Shown here: piece by piece, positions 4,011 through 16,575 of the stretch | Layout of the letters: each line of letters starts with the position of its first letter | How positions within the stretch are numbered: position 1 is the first letter of the stretch | NCBI RefSeq assembly: GCF_020382885.2 | Contig: NC_058511.1 | Span: 106,001-170,000, forward strand | DNA: 64,000 nt | Reading direction: 5' to 3' | Source of the DNA: Scatophagus argus | Lineage: Eukaryota > Chordata > Actinopteri > Scatophagidae | Notes under the pieces: model-generated | The model's input: the letters and a program-made list of their open reading frames with translations, nothing else | The model's database searches: none | Told to the model about the DNA's origin: nothing | Position numbers and translations under genes: made by a program

Positions 4011-4262
4011 TGCTGGCAGGAAGTCAATGTCTTCCCGCACTGTGGTCCGGTATAATTAAAACATTTTATCATTCTGAGTAAAACACAACCAGAAACACAG
4101 AAAGTCCCACTTTAAATCTTTTCCACTTTTAACCTTATACTTACAGCATGTAAGTTTTTATATACCAGGTACATTGGGATCGTAGTTGAACAGTTTTAAT
4201 GTGCAAAATTAGAAATGTTGCGCAAACGCTAATTCAGAGTTTTGTAACCCGTCACAAACAAA

Positions 4263-4555
4263 GCGTTTCGAATTTCCCGCAGTCCGTCAGCGGGCACGTG
4301 ATTGCGATTCGCAATCTGATTGGTTTTGTCGCAGCGTCAGTTTTAAAGAACCTCCACGAGCTGCGTTTGTATTGGCCAGCTGTGTTCTAGCGCCAAGATC
4401 TCAACAAAAAGTTGAGCGGACAGCAGAAGCCGCTTCAGTCTCTGCTCTCCGTTTGTGTTAGCCACTAGTTCGCTTAGCTTTTCTCGCTCTTTTCGCCCGC
4501 ACTTTTAACTTCTTAACTTATATTTTATCTGTCAGTCTGAACTCAGGGAATCAAA
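4263..4555 (+). promoter_or_regulatory. RRM2 promoter, copy A
   Basis: The region holds an E2F consensus (TTTCCCGC at 4273-4280) and two inverted CCAAT boxes (ATTGG at 4319-4323 and 4371-4375, 52 bp apart, an NF-Y-type arrangement). TTCGAATTT just upstream resembles a CHR element. An imperfect palindrome, GATTGCGATTCGCAATC, lies at about 4301-4317. E2F plus NF-Y control fits the known S-phase expression of RRM2. The same block is present in copy B at 16199-16491. Confidence 0.65.
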
Positions 4556-7500
4556 ATGCTTTCTGCTCGCTCTCCTCTTTCCGTCAAGAGTGAAAACACA
4601 CTCAGCGGTGCGATCGGCAGCATGTCTCTGGACAAAGAAAACACGGTGAGAGCAAAAATACCCGCAGAGCTCATGTTTCGTGTGCGCTTTCACAGTGAAC
4701 TTACTGATTTTTCAAAGTGAAAACTCACGGCAGCCATTTTCCGACCAGTTCAGTCCGATCCACTCAAGTCTACTCTGTATTTCAGCTGTGTGGTGTGATA
4801 AAATCAAACGTCCGAATGCAATGTGGGAACTGTTTTGGTCTGGTCTCTAAGGACTTCTTGTCGCTTATCTTTCAGCCTCCGAGCCTGAACACGACCCGCA
4901 TCTTGGCGTCTAAAGCCGCGCGTAAAATCTTCGACGATCCTGCGGTAAGTGAACCAAAGTGTGCTGAAAGCTGCTGTAACAGACGGAATGTCTGTGCTCA
5001 TGTTAGAGTCGGTGCTGGGGACACTGTGTTGGTCGCGGTGCTCATGTGGCGCCTAAAATGTGGCTTGTGGCGCCAACAGGACGATCAGCTGTCGCTGTTG
5101 CTCTGAATGTTCTCCTGCAGGTGACGTCTTCAAAGAGTCGGCTGTTCGCTTTCTGGTGGTGTCGGTCACCGTTTTTGACCGTTTCTCTAAAAAGAGTGTA
5201 AACATCCTGGTATTTTTTTACTTTGTACCTTTTTTACTTGACCTACCTGCACCTTTATTTCTGCTACTCTTGTGCTGCTATGACGATGTGAATTTCCCCA
5301 GTGTGGGACTAATGAAGGCCCATCTCATCTCATCTTATCTTATCTCTTAGTTAATATCAGAAGCGGAGATTCCCCTCAGCCGACCAGCTGAAGCTGAGAC
5401 AGTTTGTCGTTTTTGTTCACAGTTGCAGTTCCAGCTCAAACTTGACTTTCTGAATAAAGTCTGACATTAAGGTCGACATCGGCGCCTGTAGTGACGGGTG
5501 TTCCCTGTGTGTTTTGTGCCCTCCAGCCCAGAGCCGTGAAGAAGAGCGGCAGCGAGGAGGAGGAGGAGGAGCCGCTGCTGAAGGAAAACCCTCGTCGCTT
5601 CGTCATCTTCCCCATCCAGTACCACGACATCTGGCAGATGTACAAGAAGGCCGAGGCTTCGTTCTGGACCGCAGAGGAGGTACAGATGGACGCGGGTCAG
5701 GGGGTTTGGATCACGTTAGCAGCACAGTCGTGTCTTTATTCACATGTACTGTGACCAACTGAACATGGTCACGTGTGCAGACCAAGCCTCCGGCTGCTGG
5801 ATGATGTCGCGTTCACGGCTCGTGTTTTGTCCAGGTGGATCTGTCCAAAGACCTGCAGCACTGGGAGTCTCTGAAGGACGAGGAGAGGTACTTCATCTCT
5901 CACGTGTTGGCTTTCTTCGCTGCCAGCGACGGCATCGTCAACGAGAATCTGGTGAGGACGGCCCACATAGTTAGTCAGTCCTCTAGTTTCCCCGTCTGCT
6001 GCACGTCCCATCAGCTTCAGCCAGAAGAAAGATCCAGTGACCCTGTGAATCAGAGCACAGACTGGACTCCTGTTGTCCTGTATGCGGACGTGCTGCACAG
6101 GAAGTGTGTCGGTTCCCCCTGAAACCTTTGGATGTTAGAAAGCAGCAGTAAACTGAGGGAGCTTTAGTTGACCCCGCTTGAAGGAAAATCTTTGAGTTCT
6201 AGCAAAGATCAGAATAGCTGCAAATGAATTTTCTTTTGATGGCTTTCCTCTGTGTGACCACCAGGTGGAACGCTTCACCCAGGAAGTGCAGGTGACGGAG
6301 GCCAGGTGTTTCTACGGTTTCCAGATCGCCATGGAGAACATCCACTCAGAGATGTACAGCCTGCTCATCAACACCTACATCCGAGATCCCAAAGAGAGGT
6401 GAGACTCCACCCTGTTAGTGCTGCTGGCGGTCTGTGCCGGTCTGTGCTGGTCTGTGACGGTGTGTTCAATGACCTGCAGAGAATACCTTTTCAACGCCAT
6501 CGAGACTCTGCCGTGTGTGAAGAAGAAGGCCGACTGGGCGCTCAACTGGATCGGCAACAAAACGGCCAACTACGGTAAACGCCGCACGTTCCTGGCCCAT
6601 CAGGTTTGACGCCGATCTCTTGTCTGGCACTGATCGTAACTCTGTGCTCCTCCAGGAGAGCGTGTGGTGGCCTTTGCCGCCGTGGAGGGAATCTTCTTCT
6701 CCGGTTCCTTCGCTGCGATCTTCTGGCTGAAGAAGAGGGGCCTGATGCCCGGCCTGACCTTCTCCAACGAGCTCATCAGCAGAGACGAGGTGACGACCGC
6801 TGACTACATCACACAGCAGGATCACTGCAAAGCTTCTTCCTGCTGCTTTAGCGGAACGGAAATCACTGGAGTTTGAATCTGTCTGCGGCCGCTAACGTTG
6901 TGTTCAGGGTCTGCTCTGTAAACTGTTGTCTGTATCCTTGTGTTGCCTTCAGGGTCTGCACTGTGACTTCGCCTGTCTGATGTTCAAACACCTGGTGAAG
7001 AAGCCGCCGACAGAAACCGTCACCAGCATCATCAGGAACGCCGTGGAGATCGAGCAGGTCGGTGGACACGGACGGATGGAGGCCGTCGTCGTGGTTTCTC
7101 CCAGCCGCCGGTTTCTCTGGTTTTCACGTTGTGTGCTGCTGTCTTTGTGTTCAGGAGTTCCTGACCGAGGCTCTGCCCGTGAAGCTGATCGGGATGAACT
7201 GCGAGCTGATGAAGCAGTACATCGAGTTTGTGGCCGACAGACTGATGCTGGAGCTCGGCTTCACAAAGGTGAGCGCGTCTCGACAGACCAGAGGCCGACG
7301 GGCGGAGCCGCGGAGGACGGGGTCTGTGATGATGAGAAGCGCAGGGGTACGGACCTCAGCCGGTGATGGGGGCTGAGTGCTGCTGCGGACGTTCTGATAG
7401 GCGGACGAGTGGTCCGCTGACAGAGCAGCAGCGGCACGAGACAGACGCCCGTCTGAACAGACCCGCCGCGTTGGCTCCGACAGGCCGGTCAGGTTAGCGC

Positions 7501-7865
7501 ACGGACGCACCCGGAACTGGACGAGCTTCACGCGTGTCCACGTGTCGTTTGTGTCCCGCTGAGCCGCTGCTTTCATGCAGTGAAAGTATCAGTCACTGTG
7601 TAGAAGCGCTCTTTGTCAGACACAAGCGCAGCGTCTGAGTGTACTTGGTTAAAGACGCGACTCTGGAACGAAGTGGCTGAGCTGACCTCTGATCTGCCTC
7701 GTGTCTCTGTAGATCTATCGAGTGGAGAACCCCTTCGACTTCATGGAGAACATCTCTCTGGAGGGAAAGACCAACTTCTTCGAGAAGCGGGTTGGCGAGT
7801 ACCAGAGGATGGGCGTGATGTCGGGCCCCACCGACAACACGTTCAGGCTGGACGCCGACTTCTGA
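4556..7865 (+). CDS. rrm2: Ribonucleotide reductase small subunit M2, copy A
   Basis: Ten coding exons: 4556-4645, 4876-4944, 5527-5679, 5835-5951, 6265-6398, 6480-6574, 6656-6789, 6953-7057, 7155-7268 and 7713-7865, all with GT-AG junctions. They join to 387 residues (human RRM2 389). The protein is the beta subunit of class Ia ribonucleotide reductase, which makes dNTPs in S phase in the cytosol. The di-iron ligands are kept: D136 (AASDG), E167 and H170 (ENIHSEMY), E230 (AVEGIFF), E264 and H267 (DEGLH). The radical tyrosine is Y174. The N-terminal KEN box (DKENT, exon 1) targets the protein for APC/C-Cdh1 degradation and separates RRM2 from the p53-induced RRM2B. The C-terminal tail ends LDADF, which docks on RRM1. 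An acidic run, EEEEEE, lies at about residues 61-66. Intron 2 contains a LINE-tail repeat, also present in copy B. Confidence 0.96.
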
Positions 7866-15800: not shown

Positions 15801-16198
15801 TTCACTTACCGCAGGATCGTCGAAGATTTTACGCGCGGCTTTAGACGCCAAGATGCGGGTCGTGTTCAGGCTCGGAGGCTGAAAGATAAGCGACAAGAAG
15901 TCCTTAGAGACCAGACCAAAACAGTTCCCACATTGCATTCGGACGTTTGATTTTATCACACCACACAGCTGAAATACAGAGTAGACTTGAGTGGATCGGA
16001 CTGAACTGGTCGGAAAATGGCTGCCGTGAGTTTTCACTTTGAAAAATCAGTAAGTTCACTGTGAAAGCGCACACGAAACATGAGCTCTGCGGGTATTTTC
16101 GCTCTCACCGTGTTTTCTTTGTCCAGAGACATGCTGCCGATCGCACCGCTGAGTGTGTTTTCACTCTTGACGGAAAGAGGAGAGCGAGCAGAAAGCAT
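12889..16198 (-). CDS. rrm2: Ribonucleotide reductase small subunit M2, copy B
   Basis: Ten exons on the minus strand: 16198-16109, 15878-15810, 15227-15075, 14919-14803, 14489-14356, 14274-14180, 14098-13965, 13801-13697, 13599-13486 and 13041-12889. All splice sites match copy A. The predicted 387-residue protein is identical to copy A; the single coding difference seen is synonymous, TAC versus TAT for the second residue of exon 10. All di-iron ligands, the radical tyrosine, the KEN box and the LDADF tail are present. The 3' UTR differs completely from copy A, so transcripts of the two genes could be told apart. The copy is in the same orientation as the neighbouring galectin gene. The sequence gives no sign of pseudogene decay. 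An assembly artefact is possible but is argued against by the distinct flanks. Confidence 0.95.
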
Positions 16199-16491
16199 TT
16201 TGATTCCCTGAGTTCAGACTGACAGATAAAATATAAGTTAAGAAGTTAAAAGTGCGGGCGAAAAGAGCGAGAAAAGCTAAGCGAACTAGTGGCTAACACA
16301 AACGGAGAGCAGAGACTGAAGCGGCTTCTGCTGTCCGCTCAACTTTTTGTTGAGATCTTGGCGCTAGAACACAGCTGGCCAATACAAACGCAGCTCGTGG
16401 AGGTTCTTTAAAACTGACGCTGCGACAAAACCAATCAGATTGCGAATCGCAATCACGTGCCCGCTGACGGACTGCGGGAAATTCGAAACGC
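16199..16491 (-). promoter_or_regulatory. RRM2 promoter, copy B
   Basis: Mirror copy of the copy A promoter: the E2F site is at 16474-16481 (GCGGGAAA on +) and CCAAT boxes are at 16379-16383 and 16431-16435. Both genes should therefore respond alike to cell-cycle signals, unless sequence beyond the arm end at 16575 matters. Confidence 0.6.
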
Positions 16492-16575
16492 TTTGTTTGT
16501 GACGGGTTACAAAACTCTGAATTAGCGTTTGCGCAACATTTCTAATTTTGCACATTAAAACTGTTCAACTACGAT

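Follow-up and report, generated by a model that had tools for sequence, protein, structure and literature searches.

Results

RRM2 is present as two inverted, near-identical copies

The DNA analyzed here, hereafter the window, is a stretch of 64,000 nucleotides (nt) from the fish Scatophagus argus that comprises bases 106001-170000 of a 21.46-Mb contig (C19). The assembly totals 570.7 Mb in 48 contigs, and it is from this one genome assembly that the history of duplication described below is judged. The window carries an inverted repeat whose two arms each hold a complete coding copy of RRM2, the gene for the R2 subunit. The arms, the spacer that separates them and the two gene copies are as follows.

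4179..7877, forward strand: left arm, 3,699 base pairs (bp) long
7878..12876, unstranded: unique spacer between the arms, 4,999 bp, with one full match in the genome and one 49-bp match on contig C17
12877..16575, reverse strand: right arm, also 3,699 bp, matching the left arm at 99.87% identity with no indels
4556..7865, forward strand: left copy of RRM2 from ATG to stop, 10 exons, 387 amino acids (aa), intact
12889..16198, reverse strand: right copy of RRM2, mirror of the left, with one synonymous difference (TAT/TAC), the same protein and the splice sites kept

An inverted match of 3.7 kb at 99.87% identity is far beyond chance. Direct comparison of the arms confirmed the coordinates, the length of 3,699 bp, the absence of indels and the near-identity claimed in an earlier note on this DNA. 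That note had counted four substitutions, but there are in fact five: 4654/16100, which had been missed, 6124/14630, 7530/13224, 7718/13036 and 7873/12881 (left arm/right arm). The resulting divergence is 0.135% (95% interval 0.044-0.315%). One difference is synonymous within the coding sequence, three are intronic, and one lies within the 12 bp that follow the stop codon. Past the arm ends, identity falls immediately to chance level in an ungapped comparison. The arrangement is a palindrome, as the earlier note had called it, only in the loose sense of two inverted copies, since the 4,999-bp unique spacer holds another gene. All five differences are transitions, with A or T on the left and G or C on the right when read on the gene strand, and three of the five are part of a CpG in the right arm only; at n = 5, the directional bias is too small a sample for a test.

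Four exon models are compatible with GT-AG splicing, and the longest (387 aa) was used. Under this model the two copies encode identical 387-aa proteins, and all splice sites are kept in both. The protein aligns with mouse R2 (1h0n) over its full length (1-387, 715 bits), with gaps near the N terminus only, and the residues matching mouse D139, E170, H173, Y177, E233, E267 and H270 are conserved; these we take to be the di-iron ligands and the radical tyrosine of R2. Matches to the R2 family, with 17 of 17 candidates scored, fall at the two arm loci (10 exon matches) and at one locus on contig C17 (5 exon matches). Searched against solved structures, the C17 gene scores 593.6 bits with mouse R2 and 593.3 bits with human M2 B, which is indecisive for its naming; from its C-terminal exon it is presumably RRM2B-like. 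The N-terminal extension of the arm-encoded protein contains a KEN box motif, DKENTPP, which aligns with mouse R2 and points to RRM2 rather than RRM2B. According to an excerpt of PMC3419237, the KEN box is present in the R2 of all species and is not usual in p53R2.

Features shared by the arms

Beyond the coding exons, the arms share a core promoter, a small nucleolar RNA gene and a dispersed repeat.

4179..4555, forward strand: common core promoter and 5' untranslated region (5'UTR), with an E2F-like motif TTTCCCGC at 4273 and inverted CCAAT motifs at 4319 and 4371
7323..7461, forward strand: SNORD94 (RF00613) in RRM2 intron 9, left copy
13293..13431, reverse strand: SNORD94 (RF00613) in RRM2 intron 9, right copy
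5171..5345, unstranded: dispersed repeat in RRM2 intron 2, with its right-arm counterpart at 15409-15583 by mirror position

Each arm begins 377 bp before the ATG, and this interval includes one motif that we take to be E2F-like and two that we take to be inverted CCAAT boxes. The promoter that the earlier note placed in each arm is present as a core promoter, while sequence further upstream differs between the copies. At the other end, the inner edge of the arm lies 12 bp past the stop codon (7863-7865). What had been described as duplication of the whole gene thus extends to the complete coding gene and leaves the 3' untranslated region (3'UTR) outside. The SNORD94 match scores 72.8 bits versus a gathering score of 60, and a genome search returned only the two arm copies among the 42 candidates scored of 58,241. 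SNORD94 sits in an RRM2 intron and is itself duplicated; this host differs from PTCD3, which we take to be the host gene in human.

A genome-wide arm search, with 40 of 346 candidates scored, found two full arm copies in the 570.7-Mb assembly, and no further full copy turned up on another contig among the 48 searched. The remaining 38 scored matches are all confined to a dispersed repeat that takes up some 175 bp of intron 2. Dispersed repeats were rejected as the origin of the arms because the scored matches outside the arms reach no further than this.

Introns account for 2,146 of the 3,699 arm bp (58%, rather than the two thirds estimated previously), and they bear directly on whether purifying selection on the gene alone could explain the likeness of the arms. 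The encoded protein is conserved, as such selection would have it, but the introns differ at only three sites and without indels, and the adjoining 3'UTRs are barely alignable. We regard this explanation, refuted by the intron identity, as having next to no probability.

Diverged homology of the 3'UTRs

Each RRM2 copy has a 3'UTR sequence and poly(A) signal of its own, located in the spacer just past the inner edges.

7893..8190, forward strand: left-copy 3'UTR, weakly homologous to and co-linear with that of the right copy; hexamers AATAAA at 8071 and ATTAAA at 8160
12564..12825, reverse strand: right-copy 3'UTR, weakly homologous to and co-linear with that of the left copy; hexamer AATAAA at 12585-12580

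The two 3'UTRs align co-linearly from about 15 to 310 nt past the left arm, and the hexamers are in register (ATTAAA 8160, AATAAA 12585). As a null we used windows drawn from 200 kb of the same genome together with the rest of the window, leaving out stretches near the repeat. With the left and the right 3'UTR as query, respectively, the global score is reached by 1 and 0 of 4,850 null windows at 300 nt, by 0 and 0 of 4,806 at 400 nt, and by 0 and 1 of 4,762 at 500 nt; the loose local score is reached by none at any of these three lengths, whichever the query. The score of a reversed control, by comparison, is reached by 49-88% of null windows. Neither the global nor the loose local score is reached by any of 681 windows that end in poly(A)-like hexamers, and the pair scores 324 versus 149-187 for other pairs of 3'UTRs. 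Most of the signal derives from the last 100 nt (0 of 3,960 windows); the first 213 nt contribute less (31 and 44 of 3,920).

These 3'UTRs also bear on the possibility of an assembly artefact, in which both alleles of a single RRM2, or the same gene entered a second time, were set down as an inverted pair. A divergence of 0.135% could be allelic, and the window (106001-170000) is near the contig end. An artefact would not, however, yield diverged homologous 3'UTRs, and one of the fold-back type would lack a unique 5-kb spacer. Moreover, each arm has different sequence on both of its sides, the spacer is single in the genome, a third full copy of the arm was not found on the 48 contigs, and the window contains no N. 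We consider an artefact improbable.

A mirrored element outside the arms

A second trace of homology lies beyond the outer edges, as a pair of promoter-like elements in mirror orientation.

2252..2338, forward strand: distal promoter-like element upstream of a methyltransferase open reading frame (ORF); CCAAT and CTCF-like by eye; strict match 2300-2338
16953..17042, reverse strand: mirror counterpart of the distal element, about 378 bp beyond the right arm; strict match 16992-16953

The strict match covers 40 bp at 82.5% identity (2300-2338 versus 16992-16953, E 7e-4), and its extension to about 90 bp rests on a looser alignment. It scores 43, versus a maximum of 35 in 3,920 and in 3,960 null windows. 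Allowing at most two mismatches, the core pattern occurs just twice in 570.7 Mb, once on either side of the arms and in mirror orientation; because it is found at no further site, a common motif was rejected as the cause of the match. The element stands 1,879 bp from the arm on the left versus 417 bp on the right, and the left interval holds the methyltransferase gene and a dispersed repeat. Flanks that are homologous but diverged, which would show the duplication to be older than the likeness of the unit, give a mixed picture: they are seen for the 3'UTRs and for one distal element, but not next to the outer edges. The observed/expected ratio of CpG is 1.47 at 16501-17000 versus 0.59 at 3751-4250.

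The most direct competitor to the reading that we favor below is a single recent inverted duplication, in which an inverted copy of a 3.7-kb RRM2 segment was placed some 5 kb from the original and the two have since come to differ by five substitutions. This would be the simplest account of identity without indels. Two further observations side with it: homology is absent directly past the outer edges, and the CpG-rich upstream stretch continues beyond the arm on the right side alone, which would suit the right copy being the original one. A recent duplication nevertheless leaves the alignable 3'UTRs and the mirrored distal element unexplained, and a breakpoint 12 bp past the stop codon would be a coincidence. 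We judge it possible but rather unlikely, and the weight it keeps comes mainly from the lack of homology next to the outer edges.

A probable old duplication homogenized by gene conversion

We favor, with a probability of roughly 60%, an old inverted duplication of RRM2 whose promoter-to-stop unit was homogenized by ectopic gene conversion. Diverged homologous flanks around a young-looking gene point to homogenization after the duplication, once or repeatedly, and the mirrored residual homology outside the arms suggests that an older inverted duplication, longer than the present arms, has left remnants there. The position of the inner edge just past the stop codon fits a tract that ended where similarity was lost in a fast-evolving 3'UTR, and would be expected of conversion that tracks conserved coding sequence. 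The GC content of the RRM2 introns (52.3%) exceeds that of the spacer (41.5%), which fits GC-biased conversion; the introns of the C17 R2-class gene are at about 31-39%. Where the earlier note had offered recent duplication or continuing conversion, the homology outside the arms, the inner edge and the GC content of the introns favor conversion and disfavor recent duplication, and the conversion may be either continuing or a single recent event. If some 4e-9 mutations per site are assumed for each generation, the last homogenization would date back on the order of 10^5 generations. Conversion between inverted neighbors is documented in PMC3924832 and PMC3199776, with PMC2720389 as a further precedent for conversion.

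Under old duplication with conversion, the original inverted duplication would have extended past both ends of the present arms, and conversion would recur whenever the linked inverted arms pair. As the flanks diverged, the tract would have shrunk to the parts kept similar by purifying selection, namely the last coding exon and, probably, also the core promoter. Conversion would no longer have reached the 3'UTRs or the distal upstream sequence, which would have evolved separately. Exchange between the inverted arms would at times flip the galectin-8-like spacer, and crossing over between them would swap 3'UTRs between upstream regions. It is a tentative extension of this reading, one we think rather doubtful, that the pair is long-lived, with protein, introns, core promoter and SNORD94 locked together while 3'UTRs and distal promoters diverge, and with the galectin-8-like spacer flipping repeatedly and re-pairing 3'UTRs with upstream regions.

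Several results weigh against an old, homogenized duplication. For the 3'UTRs, local scoring at 200 nt gives a weak signal (130 and 156 of 4,894 null windows) and global scoring none (703 and 767 of 4,894), and no homology is detected once the poly(A) region is passed (1,410 and 1,994 of 3,840). The strict local score is reached by 2 of 100 dinucleotide shuffles and, with the left 3'UTR as query, by 6 of 4,528, 5 of 7,760 and 2 of 681 windows, although by none in each set with the right as query. Strict local scoring being less exceptional, it is the alignment length that carries the claim of 3'UTR homology. Because of overlap among the null windows, all such counts overstate independence.

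The outer flanks and the arms themselves add to these points. No homology was found in the first 200-500 nt past the outer edges, where 5-48% of null windows reach the score, nor in the left pieces between element and arm, nor upstream of the element. When the distal element was put to a looser test against 200 sampled windows of 2 kb, its score was reached by 1 of 200 with the right flank and by 0 of 200 with the left; the core pattern was derived from its own two sites, so that its rarity shows the sequence to be uncommon and nothing more. A relic of the methyltransferase to the right of the arms was sought and not found (best E 0.77). With respect to composition, the GC content at third codon positions of RRM2 (0.82) is equaled by that of an ARID1-like exon (0.83), and non-coding GC to the right of the arms is 45-46%. 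Finally, clustering of the arm differences near the inner edge has P = 0.007 for a region picked afterwards, but P = 0.19 when the smallest span of three differences is taken.

Neighboring genes and repeats

The remaining features of the window lie in the spacer and on either side of the arms.

8576..10819, reverse strand: galectin-8-like gene within the spacer, with four exon matches to Gal-bind_lectin
2485..3630, forward strand: METTL22-like methyltransferase ORF without introns, Methyltransf_16 8.4e-20, on the left side only
3801..4005, unstranded: dispersed repeat resembling a short interspersed nuclear element, left outer flank
30608-31702: ORF of an ARID1-like gene to the right of the arms, BAF250_C match

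Of the 151 window ORFs of at least 90 aa, 30 were compared with Pfam. The spacer gene matches Gal-bind_lectin at 1.3e-30, and its best match among solved structures is galectin-8. The methyltransferase ORF we take to be METTL22. Human METTL22 has introns, and a protein search of the genome, with 4 of 4 candidates scored, found no second methyltransferase locus; the intronless ORF may have arisen as a retrocopy and taken the place of its parent gene. A literature search on the retrogene gave no mention of METTL22 among the 8 of 186 papers listed.

Further to the right, two RVT_1 fragments on the forward strand at 42858-44624 score 28.1 and 19.8 bits, under the curated cut-off of 29.6, and are probably a decayed retroelement. 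Near them lies a pair of direct repeats (40265-40568 and 44511-44817) that match over 196 and 76 nt at 90% and 96%. Another pair, 37.9 kb apart (23165-23484 and 61083-61401), matches over 114 and 164 nt at 92% and 98%. The first 3,000 bases of contig C19 consist of 2,500 N followed by degenerate CCCTAA repeats, which would place the window some 100 kb away from the end of the chromosome.

Comparison with known systems

The R2 subunit supplies the radical for the synthesis of deoxynucleoside triphosphates, and the two copies in the assembly predict a doubled gene dose. Two RRM2 genes would make one protein from a common core promoter, with different 3'UTRs and upstream regions. If conversion keeps the copies identical, the pair offers a natural test of whether selection favors a doubled dose of an identical R2 subunit, and of how conversion tracts are bounded, the inner boundary here being at the stop codon. 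A literature search on RRM2 duplications and palindromes found no report of an inverted RRM2 pair, PMC9201518 and PMC7969005 lying outside its coverage. As judged from sequence, the locus suggests a known kind of behavior, an inverted pair homogenized by conversion, in a new gene.

Within fishes, the crucian carp likewise has two R2 genes, R2i and R2ii; the available part of PMC3419237 ascribes them to genome duplication, gives a protein likeness of 95% and describes no linked inverted pair. The same source assigns one R2 gene to zebrafish and mammals. The mammalian pairs BMP8A/B, DDX19A/B and TUBG1/2 (PMC2720389, in excerpt) are also two-copy vertebrate families in which at least one intron has been kept alike over the long term by conversion, but they were established by comparison within versus between species, whereas the RRM2 pair is known from one genome. 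The Dlx pair of Capitella teleta (PMC3199776, in part) is, like RRM2, linked, inverted and tail-to-tail, with conversion deduced from unusual identity. Conversion there covers part of the homeobox and the adjoining intron; in the RRM2 pair the whole gene body is near-identical.

The resemblance to sex-chromosome palindromes drawn in the earlier note holds loosely. These too are inverted duplicates open to conversion between arms (PMC3403216, in excerpt), but the RRM2 arms are gene-sized, and we see no sign that C19 is a sex chromosome. Closer parallels are Hsp70Aa/Ab and Amy-p/Amy-d of Drosophila (PMC3924832, in the portion available), closely linked inverted pairs in which the gene is homogenized by ectopic conversion; for Amy, that source describes a homogenized pattern confined to the coding sequence, with flanks that evolve independently. 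The RRM2 pair, seen in one species, differs from both in that a nine-intron gene is near-identical from core promoter to stop and in that its spacer holds another gene.

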